From: Balneolales bacterium ANBcel1
GTDB lineage: Bacteria; Bacteroidota; Rhodothermia; Balneolales; Natronogracilivirgulaceae
NCBI GenBank assembly: GCA_029688905.1
Contig: JARULB010000005.1
Span: 124,001-188,000, forward strand
Length of the DNA stretch: 64,000 nucleotides
Direction of reading: 5' to 3'
Shown: piece after piece, positions 3,595 through 14,821 of the stretch
Layout of the letters: each line of letters begins with the position of its first letter
How positions within the stretch are numbered: position 1 is the first letter of the stretch
Made by a program: the position numbers and the translations under genes
The notes under the pieces: generated by a model
What the model was told of the DNA's origin: nothing
What the model saw: the letters and a program-made list of their open reading frames with translations, nothing else
Databases searched by the model: none

Positions 3595-6045
3595 CTATTT
3601 TATCAGGCTGAGCGTTCTGGTTTCGGCGAAAGCTCCGGCACGCAACGTGTAGAAATACACCCCGCTTGAAAGCGCACGGGCATCGAATACGACCGTATGA
3701 AACCCGGGCTGCATGCGGTCTGATACCAACGACTCAACCCTCTGGCCCAGAAGGTTGTAAACATTCAGCTCGACATGGGATTCGTGCGGAATACCAAATG
3801 AAATACTGGTCGACGGATTAAACGGGTTGGGATAATTCTGGCTCAGGGAAAACTCTCTGGGAGTCCCCGGTTCCTCACCGGCGGATACGGCCGTTATCGT
3901 CGCCTCGTTGCTGTAAATGGACTCGGCCGATCCCGCATAGGCTTTGACCCGGTAGGTGTAGGCAGTGAGACTCTCCAATCCGTCGTCAACATAGCGGTAC
4001 CCGGACTCGATCGGCTCGGTACCGATAACGGAAAAAACCGACTCAGCTTCTGATGCGCGTTCGATGATAAATCCCTCTGCGATGCTGGAGTTGTCGTTCC
4101 AGGTGAGGGTGATCTCGTTGGTGCGGGAGGTATGAAGCTCAAGATCCGACGGACCCAAAACCAGGGTGAAAGACATTGTTTCGCTCCATGGACTCGTTCC
4201 CGACAAATTATTTGAACGGACGCGAAAGTAGTAGGCTACCCCCTCTCTGGTGCTGTAAAAAACCCGTGAAGTATCGGTGGTTGATGCGGACGTGACACCC
4301 TGCTCAAAATCCGGATCCGTTGCAAATTGCACATCGTAGGAACTGGCATAGGGTGCAGGATTCCAGGCAAACCGGAGGAAATCTGCACGGGTGGCATGCG
4401 GAAGCGCTGTTCCGCTTTGGGGAGCTTCGGGCATGGGGATATCGGTACTGAACATGCGGCTGCTGCCCCATGGACCCACCTCACCTTCCTGGTTTCTGAC
4501 CCGTACCCGCCAGTGATAAAACACGCCCTGTCCCAGTCCGTCAAATGTAACCGATGTTCCGGACGTGGAATCCTCCTTCAGCACATTTCGGAACGAGGCG
4601 TCTTCGGCCAGCTGTACTCGGTATACAGCTGCATTCTCAACTTCCTCCCATTCGAATATGACTTCGGTATCCAATCCCGCTTCGCCTTCCGCCGGGCGTT
4701 GCAGCGGCGCAGTCTCCATAAATGAAGAGCCATCCGAAAGTTCCGGAGTCTCCCAGGTAATCCACGGAGAAAGGTCGGTTTCATATACTGTGCTTCGGAT
4801 CCGGGTATCGGAAGATTCATCGCCGAGCAGAAAACGATCCACAAAGGCTTCCATCTCCAGACGGACATTTTCGGGAACCTGGCAATGGGAATGTCCCCCC
4901 ACAATGGCATAGCCGAATCGTTCGGGGATACAAAGCGCGTTATATACCTCCTCGGCTCCCCGGCTTGCTACATACCCCGATTCATCAGCCATCCATTCGT
5001 AACCGGGGTTACCGGTTACCAGCAAGGCTCTGGGCGCTACCATCGCCATCAGCTCATGATGGTCAAAGGGCAGCCTGTTCACCGCGTTTGAAAAATTATT
5101 CTGGAATCTCGAGGCAAACCATGACGCATTCGTATTATTGAGCCTCTCTACACCGGGCAGCGTCTCGTTCACCCGCCAGGCGGTATATCCGCCACCCCCT
5201 GACTCCTGTGAAATGGTAAGCGCAATTCGCTCATCAAACGCTCCGGCATACAGAGCCATTTTCCCGGCGAACGAGCAGCCGGTGACCGCCAGGCGCTCCA
5301 TATCCAGGTTGATTTCATCGGCAATCAACTCCAATCCGTCGATCAGTCGGCTGACCCCCCAGGGCCAGGCACTGTACGCTCCGATGTGGGTATGTTCCGG
5401 GAACAGGACATTTATAGGTTCATTACCCCTGGTTTGAGTGTGGCTCATGACCTGCCCGAAATTAAAGGGTATCTGCATAATATCCCGGCTGGTAAAGATG
5501 TCGGAGGGCAGACTCCCCGACGGACCGCCCATTCCGATGACGGCCGGAACCGGACCATCCGTATCTCCTTCGGGCAGAACGATATTCGAAGTAAGCACCA
5601 GAGTGTTCCCTCCAACCGTCACCTCGACGGTCAGTACATTGTCATCGGGGGAATAACTGGCCTGGAGGTCATCCGGCAGCGGTGGACGTTCCCCGACCTG
5701 ATAGTGATGAATCATTCCCCCAACCTCCGCGCGACGGTATCGCCAGTCGGAAAAATGGGCGATCCGGCCTCTGCCGTCGAACCAGGCAAACGGATCGGGC
5801 AGCGAACTGACGGAGGGCAGGTCGTTTCGGGGCGGGAAGGCGGGCATGGGGCAATCCACACAGGTGTTTTCCTCATCATAGACCAGGGGCAATGACTCTC
5901 CAACGGGTATTCCGGCAGTTGAAAACGCGCTGCCACTAGCTTCTTCGGCAGGCAGCTCCCCGGCACTCATGGCATAGGCTCCGGAAGCAATAACGAACAA
6001 TACAAGATACAGGAATGCTGCACACAGAAAATTTGGTCTCTTCAT
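3595..6045 (-). CDS. T9SS-exported CE15-type glucuronoyl esterase-like protein with Fn3 repeats
   Basis: An 816-residue secreted protein. Order: signal peptide (about 1-25), linker with a CxxC, CE15 domain (about 70-410), three fibronectin type III-like repeats (about 435-715), and a C-terminal T9SS sorting domain from about 735 (QNYPNPFNPSTS, LSSGVYFYTLRAG, ending LSLIK). CE15 features include the nucleophile motif GCSFAGK (Ser258), the segment DERIALTISQESGGGG with acidic E281, and the His-containing GGHSHCQVP (H385/H387). CE15 enzymes cleave the ester between glucuronoxylan and lignin, so the likely role is surface degradation of plant cell-wall material. Oddity: family members normally have Arg directly after the nucleophile (GCSRxGK); here it is Phe259, which may weaken or alter activity. 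Family confident, activity uncertain. Confidence 0.88.
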   Translation of the reverse strand: MKRPNFLCAAFLYLVLFVIASGAYAMSAGELPAEEASGSAFSTAGIPVGESLPLVYDEENTCVDCPMPAFPPRNDLPSVSSLPDPFAWFDGRGRIAHFSDWRYRRAEVGGMIHHYQVGERPPLPDDLQASYSPDDNVLTVEVTVGGNTLVLTSNIVLPEGDTDGPVPAVIGMGGPSGSLPSDIFTSRDIMQIPFNFGQVMSHTQTRGNEPINVLFPEHTHIGAYSAWPWGVSRLIDGLELIADEINLDMERLAVTGCSFAGKMALYAGAFDERIALTISQESGGGGYTAWRVNETLPGVERLNNTNASWFASRFQNNFSNAVNRLPFDHHELMAMVAPRALLVTGNPGYEWMADESGYVASRGAEEVYNALCIPERFGYAIVGGHSHCQVPENVRLEMEAFVDRFLLGDESSDTRIRSTVYETDLSPWITWETPELSDGSSFMETAPLQRPAEGEAGLDTEVIFEWEEVENAAVYRVQLAEDASFRNVLKEDSTSGTSVTFDGLGQGVFYHWRVRVRNQEGEVGPWGSSRMFSTDIPMPEAPQSGTALPHATRADFLRFAWNPAPYASSYDVQFATDPDFEQGVTSASTTDTSRVFYSTREGVAYYFRVRSNNLSGTSPWSETMSFTLVLGPSDLELHTSRTNEITLTWNDNSSIAEGFIIERASEAESVFSVIGTEPIESGYRYVDDGLESLTAYTYRVKAYAGSAESIYSNEATITAVSAGEEPGTPREFSLSQNYPNPFNPSTSISFGIPHESHVELNVYNLLGQRVESLVSDRMQPGFHTVVFDARALSSGVYFYTLRAGAFAETRTLSLIK

Positions 6046-9436: not shown

Positions 9437-9794
9437 ATTGAATGATTTTACTGTGATAGATAACGTTTTCTGTCATCTTAGTTATCGGCTGTCCGGCTGT
9501 TTTCATAAACACGTTCCAGCGACTGTTTTTCCACATGACTTTGCTCATCCCCGGGTCGGTATTTGTGGGCCCGGCCGACGGCCACTCGCGACCCCCGTAC
9601 CCGGCAGACGGGGCATGCAACGCCACCAGTTGGATAATGGCGGATCCGAATCATATTTTACAACCGAATACGTTATCAAAATCATTGGGGTGCCGAAACA
9701 TACAAGGTCCGGATATATCATTACCGTATCACCCCGGCTTGAGGCGCCCCTTATCGCCACCACTCTTAACATTATTGGCAAACAGGAGGAAATT
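9437..9794. other. Intergenic region, divergent promoters of sensor kinase and DJ-1 lipoprotein
   Basis: No gene is supported here. The forward frame is technically open from 9438 into the DJ-1 gene, but the upstream part does not resemble protein, and the true start has a strong AGGAGGA ribosome site at 9784-9790. A short inverted repeat GATAAC/GTTATC (9459-9464, 9481-9486) lies close to the kinase start. Promoters for both genes should be here; I cannot assign -35/-10 boxes with confidence. Confidence 0.5.
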
Positions 9795-10424
9795 ATGCAG
9801 ATATTGAAGCAGACAGGACCCTTTTTGGTATTGATGGCAATTATTGTGCTCACTGTTGGCTGTGAGCCCCATACAACCGAAACCGCTGAAATCACCGAAA
9901 CAGGTGAATTACGTGGGAAAAATGTCGCATTTCTGGTAGGTGAGGGATTCCATGACGGAGAAACCCTCTTTCCAATGGCCTATCTCATCAACCATGGTGC
10001 GAACGTTACGGTTATCGGGGCCGAAACCGGGGAGTTTACCGCCTATAACAGCGATGTGACCGTCCTGGTACCGCTGTCGGTTGACGATGTTGTTCCCGGA
10101 AATTTTGACGCCCTTGTGATTCCCGGTGGCGGCTCGCCGGACAACCTTCGCCAGCATGATAATGTCGTCTCCTTCGTGAGAGACTTCTACGAAATGAACC
10201 GGCCAATGGCGGCCATCTGCCATGGCCCACAGGTTTTAATCACTGCAGGCGTGGTTGGAGGCCGTACTCTTACCGGCTTCCAGGGTATTGAAGATGAGAT
10301 AACCGGCGCAGGTGCAAGTTTCGAAGATGTAGAGGTTATGGTGGATGGGAACCTGATCACCTCCCGGCTGCCGCAAGACCTTCCCGCATTCAGCCGGCAG
10401 ATCGCGGAAGCGCTGATGAACTGA
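9795..10424 (+). CDS. DJ-1/PfpI-family lipoprotein
   Basis: 209 residues. Start chosen at ATG 9795 because a strong AGGAGGA lies 4 bp upstream and the product then begins with a clean lipoprotein signal peptide (hydrophobic 9-20, lipobox LTVGC with Cys23). The mature part is a DJ-1/PfpI domain (about 41-209): conserved acidic GEGFHDGE near its start and nucleophile elbow AAICHGP (Cys142, His143). Family members include protein/nucleotide deglycases, glyoxalases and chaperones, nearly all cytoplasmic. A lipid anchor puts this one in the periplasm or on an outer-membrane leaflet, which is unusual. It may detoxify carbonyls or act as an amidase outside the cytoplasm (inference). It converges on the erythromycin-esterase-family gene with a 33-bp gap. 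Confidence 0.9.
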   Translation: MQILKQTGPFLVLMAIIVLTVGCEPHTTETAEITETGELRGKNVAFLVGEGFHDGETLFPMAYLINHGANVTVIGAETGEFTAYNSDVTVLVPLSVDDVVPGNFDALVIPGGGSPDNLRQHDNVVSFVRDFYEMNRPMAAICHGPQVLITAGVVGGRTLTGFQGIEDEITGAGASFEDVEVMVDGNLITSRLPQDLPAFSRQIAEALMN

Positions 10425-10457: not shown

Positions 10458-11852
10458 TCAATCAAGCGGAGTCAGTGCCCGCGTTTCATCAAAAAACAGA
10501 AACGCGTCGTATCGCAGCGGCATAACGGTCTCCACGTAATTCTGCCGCGCATCCTGTTCCGGCTGATAGACCACTCCGATGGCACGGTTTCCCCTTTGTT
10601 CCAGCAGGGGACCGTGCGCGTCCGGATCATCAAACAGTAACAGCAGCGGAGAAATACCGGCACGGTACATCAGAGATTCGTAACTGCCATCCCGGGCTTC
10701 GGGCACCTGCATGCGCTCTCTGCGGCCTTCCCATTGCCGCGCTGCGTACACCTCACCCCGGTAGGTGCCGAAACCTACGGAGAAGACCTGCTCTTCGCCC
10801 AGGGTCTCGCGGGCAATCTGACCAATATTGCGCATTCCGGCATTTCGCATATCGGTAGCCCGGGCATCCCCGATATGTGTGTTGTGGGCCCAAACAATAC
10901 CCCGCGCCTCCTCACCATACGCTTCGAGCAGCTTTTCAGCAGCGTCATAAAAATGGTCCACCCGGTGATTCCATGACTGCGGACCCTGTTGCAGGTTTCC
11001 CCGGATATGCCGCTCGGCAAAGACCACCATTCGGGAGTTCTGGTACGCTTTCAGAAATCCCAGAGAGTCATCGGCCGCGTACGTGTCCCGGTTCCGGGAA
11101 AGCAGCTCATGCACTTCCTCCAGGTCACCTCCGCAATGCTCCCCGCTAACTTGCACCGAGCGTAAATATCCGGAAAGATCCCGATGACGGTCAAAGCAGC
11201 CATACAGGCCGCGAACCCGGCGTACCTGTTGCGGGTCGTTCTGCTCAAGGAAAGCAATCACATCGCTGATCCCCTGCTCCCATGCGTAAACATCGAGACC
11301 GTAAAATCCGGCAGTACCGCCGGCCGGTTGCCGGCTGTTGTAATCGCGCATCCAGTTGACCAGATGCAGAACCTCTTCATTATTCCACATCCACTGCGGC
11401 CATCTGGAAAAAACGGACAGGGCGTCTCGGCTTTCCTGCGGATCATCCTCCATGTGCTTGACATGCCGGTTGATTCGAAAGGCAAGGGGCCAGTCGGCCT
11501 CCACAATCACAAAATCAAAACCTTTATCCTCAATAAGCCGCCGGGATATTTCCGCCCTCCAGGAGTAGTACTCGGAGGTGCCGTGCGAAGCTTCTCCAAG
11601 AAGTACCAGCCGGCGCTCCCCCGCCCGCTCAATCAGTGGACCAAGATCCTGCTTGCCGGACAGTGCGATCCCCGTTCCCCGGATATGATCCACCACCCGT
11701 TCATCCTGTGATGAGGCAGCAGAATACCCCGTGCCGGCATAACTGCCACCGGGAAGTAAAAGGGCCGCTGCAAAGAACAGCAATAAGCACCTTGCATATG
11801 CATAAAGCCTGTTTCCGTTGAGCGAGGGAGAAAACATCAGATTTTGAGACAT
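10458..11852 (-). CDS. Secreted erythromycin esterase-family protein
   Basis: 464 residues from ATG 11852. The open frame extends to 11954, but the chosen start puts a signal peptide at the right distance (hydrophobic 22-34, GGSYAG). The Ere/EreA-type domain (PF05139) shows LLGEASHGT (Glu87, His90), IVEADWP (Glu118), FYGLDVYAW, a second histidine in AERHIRG and a third in WAHNTHIGD. Characterised Ere enzymes hydrolyse the macrolactone of 14-membered macrolides, but most chromosomal homologues have unknown substrates and resistance should not be assumed. Export here points to a periplasmic substrate. It is monocistronic as far as can be seen and converges on the DJ-1 lipoprotein gene. Confidence 0.87.
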   Translation of the reverse strand: MSQNLMFSPSLNGNRLYAYARCLLLFFAAALLLPGGSYAGTGYSAASSQDERVVDHIRGTGIALSGKQDLGPLIERAGERRLVLLGEASHGTSEYYSWRAEISRRLIEDKGFDFVIVEADWPLAFRINRHVKHMEDDPQESRDALSVFSRWPQWMWNNEEVLHLVNWMRDYNSRQPAGGTAGFYGLDVYAWEQGISDVIAFLEQNDPQQVRRVRGLYGCFDRHRDLSGYLRSVQVSGEHCGGDLEEVHELLSRNRDTYAADDSLGFLKAYQNSRMVVFAERHIRGNLQQGPQSWNHRVDHFYDAAEKLLEAYGEEARGIVWAHNTHIGDARATDMRNAGMRNIGQIARETLGEEQVFSVGFGTYRGEVYAARQWEGRRERMQVPEARDGSYESLMYRAGISPLLLLFDDPDAHGPLLEQRGNRAIGVVYQPEQDARQNYVETVMPLRYDAFLFFDETRALTPLD

Positions 11853-11991
11853 CGTCACAGACCGGTTTATCAACGTTTTTGTGAACCCACTGTTCAAGTA
11901 CAATAATCCATTATAAAATGGCCATCCTGTAAACAAGATTCCAAAGATATTCATGATGCAGAAGCGAGTAAAAATTTAATTAATAAAAAAT

Positions 11992-12306: not shown

Positions 12307-12663
12307 ATGAGCACATTCGAGATAAAAAGAAGGTCCGAATCCAATATTGTAATACTTGACATTTTCGGGGAACTGGATGCTCATACGGCTCCTGTACTGG
12401 AAAAAGAGTTTCAACAGCTGATCGAGGATAAATCTGTAGAGATCATTGTCAACGGTTCTTCGCTGGAGTACATATCCAGTGCCGGCCTGGGTGTTTTCAT
12501 GGCCTATATCGAGGATATCCGTTCACAAGGAGGTGATATCAAAATCACCCGGCTCAAACCAAAAGTTTTTAATGTATTCGACCTTCTCGGCTTTCCAACG
12601 CTGTACGACATTCTGGATACCGAGGCCGATGCAATCGATCGTTTTCAAAACCGGTCCCAATAA
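12307..12663 (+). CDS. STAS-domain anti-sigma factor antagonist (RsbV/SpoIIAA type)
   Basis: A 118-residue single-domain STAS protein. By alignment of YISSAGLGVF with the SpoIIAA motif DSSGLGV, the phospho-acceptor should be Ser58. In partner-switching systems the unphosphorylated form binds the anti-sigma kinase and releases its partner (a sigma factor or other effector), while phosphorylation inactivates it. It is the first gene of a three-gene operon with a cognate kinase (18 bp downstream) and a PP2C phosphatase, so all three switching functions are together. The ATG follows a T-run with no obvious Shine-Dalgarno. The C-terminal ~15 residues extend past the domain. Confidence 0.92.
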   Translation: MSTFEIKRRSESNIVILDIFGELDAHTAPVLEKEFQQLIEDKSVEIIVNGSSLEYISSAGLGVFMAYIEDIRSQGGDIKITRLKPKVFNVFDLLGFPTLYDILDTEADAIDRFQNRSQ

Positions 12664-12681
12664 ACCATTTACCCCGCAGCC

Positions 12682-13101
12682 GTGACTGCCATTACGGAAC
12701 ATACCTTGCGTACCGGCGCCTCCACCGAAGAGCTGGAGCGCATCAGGCATTTCGTTGCCGACCATGCCCGCAGCTTTGGTTTTGGCGAGAACGATATCAG
12801 CGACATACAGCTTGCCGTCGATGAAGCCTGCACCAATGTCATCAAGCACGCCTACCAATGGGACGCCACCAAAGAGATTATCATCCGGATCGCCGAACAC
12901 AAAAATGAATTTCTGATCTCCATTTTTGACAACGGCAAACCGTTCGATCCGAAAGCCTACCGGCTCCCGACCACACAAGATCAGTTGGAACAGAAAAAAA
13001 GGAGTGGATACGGTATCCTGCTGATCCGTAAATTGATGGATAACGTGGAGTACCGGAAGCGGAAATCCCGCAATGAAATCCGGATGACAAAAAAACTCTG
13101 A
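12682..13101 (+). CDS. Anti-sigma factor serine kinase (RsbW/SpoIIAB-like HATPase)
   Basis: 139 residues, GHKL ATPase fold of the HATPase_c_2 type. N box DEACTNVIKHAYQ, G1 box FDNGKPFDP, and glycine-rich lid RSGYGILLIRKLMD. Proteins of this type bind and inhibit a partner (often a sigma factor) and phosphorylate the STAS antagonist on Ser. The start is GTG at 12682, 18 bp after the STAS stop. It ends 7 bp before the phosphatase start, so the three proteins are made from one message. No sigma factor gene is in the window, so the target is encoded elsewhere or is not a sigma factor. Confidence 0.92.
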   Translation: MTAITEHTLRTGASTEELERIRHFVADHARSFGFGENDISDIQLAVDEACTNVIKHAYQWDATKEIIIRIAEHKNEFLISIFDNGKPFDPKAYRLPTTQDQLEQKKRSGYGILLIRKLMDNVEYRKRKSRNEIRMTKKL

Positions 13102-13108
13102 CCACTCT

Positions 13109-14821
13109 GTGCCGGATCCGAATCAAAAATACAGTGAGCATCAAAGCCGGTTCGATCTGCAGACCCTACTCGATACCAGCCGCCTGCTGATTGAATCGCA
13201 CGATGTTGATTTTGTGCTGAACAACCTGCTGCTTATCTCCATGGGGAAGCTGATGGTGCAGCGTGCCGCCATTTTCTGGTATCACCCCCGCTCCAGCTCC
13301 TACTCGGTGATAAAGAAGAAGGGACGCATCCAGCTGCCTGACACCTTCAGTATCCCGGAGAAACCGTTTCGAACCAGCAACGCCATTTACTGCGGTACCC
13401 ATCCCGAACTTGCACTGATCGCCGAGTCCGGCATTCGCCTGATGATCCCGATTAAGAGCAGTAATCGGCATCTCGGATATCTTGCGCTCGGGCCCAAACC
13501 CGGAAATCTTGAAAATACCAGGGAGGAGACCGACATACTGGAGAGTTTTGTCTTCATGTCAGGTATCGCCATCTCGAATTCCGAACTGGTCGGGGAACTC
13601 AAATCCACCAACCGGAAGCTGGACTACAAGGTGCAGGAGCTTCACACCCTGTTTGACCTCAGCAAGGCATTTAACGTATCAACAAACCGAAAAGAGATCA
13701 TCCGGCTGTTTAAATACACCCTGCTCGGCCAGATGTTCATCCGCCGCTTTTTCCTGGTCGTATGCCGAAATCACGAACCTGTGCTTGTAACGGAGAACGG
13801 GCTGCAGGTCACTCCGGATGACACCCAGCTTGATAAACTGTTCCGAATCGAGAAGGATATCATTCGGGTGGATGACTCCCTTCGGTCGGAGATCCCGTTC
13901 CTGGATTCTTCCGAGATGGTACTGATCCTGAAACTGCATGGCGATGCCGGGGAACCGGCAATTCTCGGCCTGGGTAAACGGGCGAACGGTAAGGATTTCG
14001 AGCAAACCGACTACAATTTTCTGATTTCTCTGGGAAACCTGGCGCTCATGTCTGTGCAGAAAACTTTTCTGCTGGAAGACCAGATAGAGAAAGAACGGAT
14101 GGAAGAGGAGTTGCAAATTGCCCGTTCCATTCAACAGAAATTGCTTCCGGAAACAATTCCGGAAGTTCCCGGACTGCAGATCGCGGGGCGGAACGTACCA
14201 TCCTATCAGGTCGGTGGCGACTATTTTGACCTGATCCGGCATGAAAGCGGAAACCTGACCATGGCAATTGCCGATGTCACAGGAAAAGGTGTTCCCGCAT
14301 CCCTGCTCATGGCAAACCTGCAGTCTGTACTGCATATTCTCCAGCCGTTCGAAATCAGCCTGGTAGATGCCACCGGGCAGATCAACGCTCTGATCTATCA
14401 AAATACACCCAGCGACAAATTCATCAGTTTTTTCTGGGGTTTGTACTCCCCCGAAAACCGGACCCTTCGCTATGTGAACGCCGGTCACAACCCCCCCATT
14501 CTACTTCGCGAAAACACAGAACCCAGGCTGCTGACGGAGGGCGGGGTGCTGCTGGGCGCCATGCCTACTCTAACACCCTACTCGGAAGGCACGCTGCCGC
14601 TTGAAAAAGGGGATCTCCTGGTCATGTACACGGATGGCGTGACCGAAGCGATGAATGCCGATGATGAAGAGTATGGGGAGGAACGCCTGACCGCCTTGCT
14701 TGATGAGTTGCGCGGAGCCGATGCCCGTGACATACTTGAGGGCATTACCGCCGATGTCGGATCATTTTGTGACGATCAATTCACTGATGATCTCACCCTG
14801 ATCGTCATTAAGGTGCACTGA
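13109..14821 (+). CDS. GAF-PP2C (SpoIIE-type) serine phosphatase, RsbU-like
   Basis: 570 residues with a GTG start 7 bp after the kinase stop. The N-terminal half holds two GAF-like sensory regions (about 15-160 and 180-320). A coiled linker (about 325-350, EKERMEEELQIARSIQQKL) leads to the SpoIIE/PP2C catalytic domain (about 350-570). Metal-binding acidic residues are visible in QVGGDYFD, ADVTGKG, YTDGVTE and FTDDLTLI. The enzyme should dephosphorylate the STAS protein in response to a GAF-sensed signal, which frees the antagonist. Its last 14 bp overlap the end of the convergent transglycosylase gene, so expression of the two could interfere. Confidence 0.92.
   Translation: MPDPNQKYSEHQSRFDLQTLLDTSRLLIESHDVDFVLNNLLLISMGKLMVQRAAIFWYHPRSSSYSVIKKKGRIQLPDTFSIPEKPFRTSNAIYCGTHPELALIAESGIRLMIPIKSSNRHLGYLALGPKPGNLENTREETDILESFVFMSGIAISNSELVGELKSTNRKLDYKVQELHTLFDLSKAFNVSTNRKEIIRLFKYTLLGQMFIRRFFLVVCRNHEPVLVTENGLQVTPDDTQLDKLFRIEKDIIRVDDSLRSEIPFLDSSEMVLILKLHGDAGEPAILGLGKRANGKDFEQTDYNFLISLGNLALMSVQKTFLLEDQIEKERMEEELQIARSIQQKLLPETIPEVPGLQIAGRNVPSYQVGGDYFDLIRHESGNLTMAIADVTGKGVPASLLMANLQSVLHILQPFEISLVDATGQINALIYQNTPSDKFISFFWGLYSPENRTLRYVNAGHNPPILLRENTEPRLLTEGGVLLGAMPTLTPYSEGTLPLEKGDLLVMYTDGVTEAMNADDEEYGEERLTALLDELRGADARDILEGITADVGSFCDDQFTDDLTLIVIKVH

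Follow-up and report, generated by a model that had tools for sequence, protein, structure and literature searches.

A DJ-1/PfpI protein with a predicted lipid anchor from a Balneolales bacterium belongs to an export-signalled clade of the PfpI/YhbO branch

In the literature DJ-1 proteins figure as cytoplasmic protectors of the carbonyl or thiol type, and what they really act on is a matter of dispute. In the window, i.e., the whole 64,000-nucleotide stretch of Balneolales bacterium ANBcel1 DNA analysed here, one gene joins a DJ-1/PfpI domain to what looks like a lipoprotein signal, which raises the questions of whether the protein is exported, whether export is peculiar to this genome, and what such an enzyme would do outside the cytoplasm. 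A branch that is apparently all extracytoplasmic leaves fewer possible DJ-1 substrates, and it provides a natural experiment in which the nucleophile is shared while compartment, pH and pocket differ.

Export signal, start site and fold of the window protein

The gene (9795–10424, + strand) encodes a protein of 209 amino acids, as judged from its reading frame and its matches to PF01965 and TIGR01382. The N-terminus, MQILKQTGPFLVLMAIIVLTVGC, has the sequence characteristics of a bacterial lipoprotein, i.e., a positively charged start, a hydrophobic stretch and, by our pattern rule, a strict lipobox with its cysteine at residue 23. The signal peptide covers residues 1–22 (9795–9860) and the lipobox LTVGC ends at Cys23 (9861–9863); an acidic linker of 18 residues (24–41; 9864–9917) leads from there to the DJ-1/PfpI domain (residues 42–205; 9918–10409), model confidence being low before residue 42. 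A lipobox ahead of a DJ-1 domain with the intact nucleophile elbow AAICHGP was what the first-pass annotation had described, and all of these elements stand (Cys23; PF01965 at 164 bits against a cut-off of 26.6; Cys142). The sequence supports the prediction that this is a lipid-anchored lipoprotein, and a lipoprotein signal coupled to a DJ-1 domain likewise supports the view that it would act outside the cytoplasm.

Membership of the PfpI/YhbO family follows from a TIGR01382 score of 168.1 (cut-off 139.05), and both this model and PF01965 were matched by all 38 sequences of our alignment of exported relatives, A1. The score fell below the cut-offs of two narrower equivalogs, the deglycase PfpI model NF040823 (131.5 against 330) and the DJ-1 family glyoxalase III model TIGR01383 (73.9 against 131.25). 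The AlphaFold model, built from 38 sequences (mean pLDDT 92.5, pTM 0.81), was placed by Foldseek closest to Pyrococcus horikoshii PH1704 (1g2i), the nearest solved fold, at 1.0 Å rmsd, 41% identity and a TM of 0.96 of the target.

The Shine-Dalgarno sequence AGGAGGA (9784–9790, + strand) can be seen 4 bases upstream of the ATG. Among the 49 open reading frames of at least 120 codons that a simple ORF picker found in the window, only the DJ-1 gene has the 6-base AGGAGG ahead of a candidate start, in line with the earlier remark that this site is unusual among its neighbours. Such rarity is no direct evidence on expression, and the high expression which that remark went on to suggest does not follow from the Shine-Dalgarno sequence by itself. 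The start at 9795 is supported because GGAGG is kept ahead of the start in 9/11 full-length same-family orthologues (exceptions L007 and L014). Further start-like codons occur at residues 4, 11, 13, 14 and 18, none was found at residues 19–60, and no Shine-Dalgarno is visible ahead of the internal ones, which makes a signal-free form translated from a later start unlikely. A TTG start upstream at 9438, to which the frame is open, was rejected as a mechanical extension that the orthologues do not support. Apart from the Shine-Dalgarno, no conserved promoter motif was seen upstream of the gene.

A patchily distributed clade with uniform export signals

The first-pass annotation had proposed a search for lipoprotein-signalled DJ-1 domains across Balneolota; once run, it showed that export is clade-wide and no peculiarity of the source genome. 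In a tree built without the signal region from 54 full-length clade members and 38 of 49 ordinary PfpI proteins (the 49 being a hand count from the listing, with 11 near-duplicate rows dropped), the 54 fall on one side of a branch supported at 100/99, the stem measuring 0.77 changes per column. The window protein belongs to this distinct, monophyletic clade of predicted exported proteins within the PfpI/YhbO branch of the DJ-1 superfamily. Under an identical start-choosing rule, an N-terminal export signal was found in 54/54 clade members vs 0/49 ordinary PfpI, so that the clade departs from the cytoplasmic, signal-less location that is usual for the family but does not define it. By pattern rule 43 signals are of lipobox type (39 with the strict pattern, 4 with a relaxed one) and 11 signal-peptidase-I-like, L046 having been moved by eye from the former to the latter (44/10 to 43/11); Asp at +2 occurs in none of the 43. 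Contig-edge fragments that lack an N-terminus (L019/L061 and L020/L066) were left out of the 54. One genome (G014) carries two exported DJ-1 genes, L034 (contig 240) and L146 (contig 149), which share 71% and 65% identity with the window protein; the copy on contig 149 is not counted among the 54.

Members were collected at several scales. A member, defined by ≥60% identity to the window protein, is present in 17 of 59 related genomes (its own included), i.e., 14/20 in the window's family and 3/39 elsewhere in the order; when named genome contigs were scanned, 33 loci were recovered. Alignment A1 was then used as a profile over wider samples, where its coverage of the signal region raises clade scores. 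In the phylum sample, counting the source genome, 4/395 genomes have a member, and scores drop from 299 to 187 bits with nothing in between; the order of Alkalitalea gave 13/295, at least 3 of the 13 already known, and the phylum of the Phycisphaeraceae locus 3/246, one of them the seed. Samples centred on Kiritimatiellae, Wenzhouxiangella and Ignavibacteriales returned the seed alone (1/240, 1/151 and 1/149). The clade is thus rare and patchily distributed, over nine named phyla. Plasmid records gave 572 matches and phage records 30, all below 60% identity, with no clade member among the best 15 and the best 10, respectively, all of which start at query residue 39 or later. Along the tree the anchor type switches at least 5 times and the phylum label at least 8 times (two phylum-less rows omitted), which suggests that the clade spread by horizontal transfer while export was retained.

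That DJ-1 proteins are normally cytoplasmic, as the first reading of this locus assumed, agrees with a background of 60 genomes with 56 PF01965 loci, 51 of which could be classified (3 were without a start and 2 too weak): after correction by hand, about 45/51 are signal-less. The remaining 6 or so look exported, and we rejected the idea that export is unique to the clade. The automatic rule had flagged 4, one of which (L207) proved by eye to be the domain's own first strand, and had missed L175, L176 and L185. These three combine a PF01965-type domain with an N-terminal signal (by eye; lipobox-like in L185), but are set apart by the motif NF[RK]D[ED]EY, where the clade has GFHDGE, and their export is probably separate from that of the clade. 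They come from genomes sampled in the phylum to which the Phycisphaeraceae locus belongs; a second DJ-1-like type is thus present there. Prokaryotic GLYIII proteins are generally predicted to be cytoplasmic with very few species excepted (PMC8170915, in the part available), and no description of the exported clade was found in the literature searched, including the accessible portions of PMC8170915 and PMC11395390. Export as such seems to occur in other DJ-1 proteins too; the novelty lies in a branch that is monophyletic, carries export signals throughout and has an active-site signature of its own.

Composition differs as well. The last 169 residues of the window protein, i.e., its mature domain, contain a single Lys (0.6%), and clade medians are 2.3% Lys and pI 4.5 (52 of the 54 proteins; L131 and L133, whose tree rows were cut at the wrong Cys, are omitted) vs 6.9% and 5.0 in ordinary PfpI (38). 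Most same-genome pairs differ in the same direction, with L065, L046 and L039 as exceptions. Exported-looking open reading frames of the window have a median of 2.6% Lys (n = 12) vs 4.6% in the others (n = 28), and because they are Lys-poor in general the Lys poverty supports location only.

By record title, 30 of the 33 named records come from soda lakes or alkaliphiles: 20 CSSed/CSBr (Cock Soda Lake), 2 B1Sed, 2 T1Sed/T3Sed, 3 DLM/PLM, Alkalitalea, Natronoflexus and ANBcel2. The DLM/PLM codes, absent from the text of PMC6748926, we take to stand for Deer and Probe Lake mats, and CSSed16 and CSBr16 were assigned to a soda lake by prefix. The available parts of the respective papers describe B1Sed10, T1Sed, CSSed10/11 and T3Sed10 as Kulunda soda-lake sets (PMC6146748), ANBcel2 as a saccharolytic satellite from a soda lake (PMC11700989), Natronoflexus as a soda-lake haloalkaliphile (PMC4158274) and Alkalitalea as haloalkaliphilic (PMC6357142). 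Three records (L043, L046 and L049) are without a soda-lake label, and the domain of L046 is basic (pI 9.4). Set against 84,980 species in the genome collection, the 871 MAGs of a 2018 study give no more than a rough idea of the habitat base rate, and the named search is biased towards close kin because it used a single soda-lake-like query; its matches nonetheless span nine phyla.

Active site and probable activity

The nucleophile Cys142 and the adjacent His143 (10218–10223, Cys142 at 10218–10220) are present in 54/54 clade members, as is Glu56 (9960–9962), the equivalent of Glu15 of PH1704, so the nucleophile Cys, adjacent His and conserved Glu that characterise PfpI/YhbO proteins are all in place. 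Likewise invariant in the clade alignment are the oxyanion-region Gly-Gly and the pocket residues. Around this core the clade has markers of its own. His53 (9951–9953), His in 52/54 and Gln in 2/54, takes the position of PH1704 Glu12, which is Glu in 37/38 ordinary PfpI; Tyr84-Asn85 (10044–10049), near PH1704 Lys43, are each found in 54/54, with Tyr in 0/38 ordinary proteins and Asn85 in place of Lys43 itself; and Glu168 is found in 54/54 where 35/38 ordinary PfpI have Asp. The named scan had used the pattern GEGFHDGE, but His53 was rejected as a search artefact, since the other searches were pattern-free and the 2 Gln members were recovered. Asp116 (10140–10142) marks the site of an acid lent to the neighbouring subunit. 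This acid is Glu74 in PH1704 and, going by its identical distance from the Cys, Asp86 in Pseudomonas aeruginosa PfpI; it is retained in the window protein, whereas 47/54 clade members are without an acid there (acidic in 7/54) and 34/38 ordinary PfpI have Asp.

In PH1704, which has no signal, the positions of Glu12, Lys43 and Glu74 correspond to His, Asn and mostly Ala/Ser/Gly in the clade. Escherichia coli YhbO (1oi4, chain B; 42% identity, 1.3 Å) has a CHGPQ elbow, but it is without a signal, has Glu in place of His53 and lies outside the exported clade. The genome's own paralogue L002 (G000, contig 4) matches PF01965 and is 38% identical over residues 37–205, but is signal-less, has the elbow ICHAGW and contains 6.5% Lys vs 0.6%. 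P. aeruginosa PfpI (8r3n; 1.3 Å, 36% identity) shares the Cys, His and Glu; its old annotation was that of an intracellular protease, its intersubunit Asp86 is mostly not kept in the clade, and the clade markers are not recorded in the available part of PMC11987610.

That same part of PMC11987610 describes P. aeruginosa PfpI as a methylglyoxalase whose activity depends on Cys112 and His113, which share the constellation with Glu22 and Asp86; Cys142, His143 and Glu56 are the counterparts of the three in-chain residues of that constellation. Our preferred reading, put forward tentatively, is that the window protein is a lipid-anchored, extracytoplasmic enzyme of the PfpI/YhbO branch which may convert methylglyoxal-type carbonyls independently of glutathione. 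Exported and lipidated at Cys23, it would be held at the envelope by its flexible linker, facing the periplasm or the outside; Cys142 would attack the aldehyde group of methylglyoxal, of glyoxal or of a similar alpha-oxoaldehyde, with His143 and Glu56 shuttling protons, and lactate or glycolate would be released without glutathione or a cofactor. Reducing sugars outside the cell at high pH should readily give such carbonyls. In soda lakes, with their high pH and breakdown of sugar-rich polymers, the enzyme could thus protect the envelope and exported proteins from carbonyls; our literature search on methylglyoxal in alkaliphiles found nothing that ties alkaliphily to extracellular methylglyoxal. 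In favour of this reading are the family and fold matches, the uniform export signals of a single clade, the intact Cys-His-Glu core, the Lys-poor mature domain and the soda-lake or alkaliphile titles of 30 of the 33 named records. The scarcity of the intersubunit acid (7/54) speaks against it, as do the failed NF040823 and TIGR01383 cut-offs, the three named holders without a soda-lake label and the Lys poverty of exported window frames in general; the Glu12-to-His change and Tyr84-Asn85 could mean another substrate. Possible, though more doubtful, is the broader idea that the clade as a whole is dedicated to detoxifying carbonyls, or to deglycating the envelope, outside the cytoplasm, that it was re-tuned for soda-lake pH by the Glu-to-His change and the loss of the acid, and that it moved from phylum to phylum as an adaptation to habitat. 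If so, bacteria would guard their envelope, besides their cytoplasm, against reactive carbonyls, and the clade would make such protection at high pH directly testable.

The main rival, which we consider rather unlikely, also has an exported enzyme but one with a shifted substrate, acting on a different electrophile or on an amide, ester or peptide bond, e.g., in envelope repair or peptide trimming. His53, Tyr84-Asn85 and the mostly lost intersubunit acid could point this way: the positions of PH1704 Glu12 and Lys43 have changed and become fixed throughout the clade, Asp has given way to Glu168, and Glu12, Lys43 and Tyr120 of PH1704 touch all docked substrates (PMC4156298, in the part available). 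The same source reports that E12T and K43C increase PH1704 activity, so the pocket changes of the clade are of a kind that can modulate activity without abolishing it. Against a shift stands the unchanged Cys-His-Glu core. It had been argued at first pass that anchoring outside the cytoplasm implies a different substrate, and this does not follow from export by itself; with the constellation intact, the same chemistry may run in another compartment. A peptidase of the PH1704 type is further disfavoured by the loss, in 47/54, of the acid of the proposed triad (the neighbour's Glu74) and by the finding that the protease annotation of P. aeruginosa PfpI was wrong (PMC11987610, in part).

DJ-1 cysteines are readily oxidised and sensor- or holdase-type roles have been proposed for these proteins. 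An envelope-located sensor of redox state or carbonyls, or a holdase, that turns over little or no substrate would be consistent with the oxidised DJ-1 and SAV1875 structures among the Foldseek matches, but we judge it improbable: His143, Glu56, the oxyanion Gly-Gly and the pocket residues are invariant beyond what a sensor Cys needs, and no partner gene recurs across phyla. Least credible, and very improbable, is an ordinary cytoplasmic PfpI whose signal is unused or bypassed from a later start. The internal start-like codons would leave room for it; the only good Shine-Dalgarno, however, serves residue 1, start codons are absent from residues 19–60, all 54 members have signals that persist through at least 5 switches of anchor type, and L002 in the same genome is a distinct PfpI paralogue that has no signal.

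Gene neighbourhood

An operon partner was sought and rejected, as neighbours do not recur across phyla (the target gene was obtained at 43/48 loci and not at 5); this absence of a recurring partner fits the cofactor-free single enzyme of our preferred reading. A convergent gene with an erythromycin-esterase domain (10458–11954, − strand; PF05139, 339 bits) is next to the DJ-1 gene, and in 10 loci of the window's family, the window included, a gene like it adjoins the DJ-1 gene, which we read as shared synteny, not function. Genes for STAS, HATPase_c_2 (anti-sigma-like) and SpoIIE phosphatase proteins lie consecutively at 12307–14821 (+ strand); by their domains they form a partner-switching regulatory module, retained near the DJ-1 gene in relatives. 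On the other side, 3595–6045 (− strand) encodes a protein resembling glucuronoyl esterases, which has fn3 domains and ends in a C-terminal sorting tail of the secretion-system type. At seven Bacteroidales loci (L047, L048, L056, L060, L062, L063 and L064) genes of one family lie 3′ of the exported DJ-1 gene on the same strand, and two scanned members of that family match bacterial archaeo-eukaryotic release factor (baeRF-type) families.
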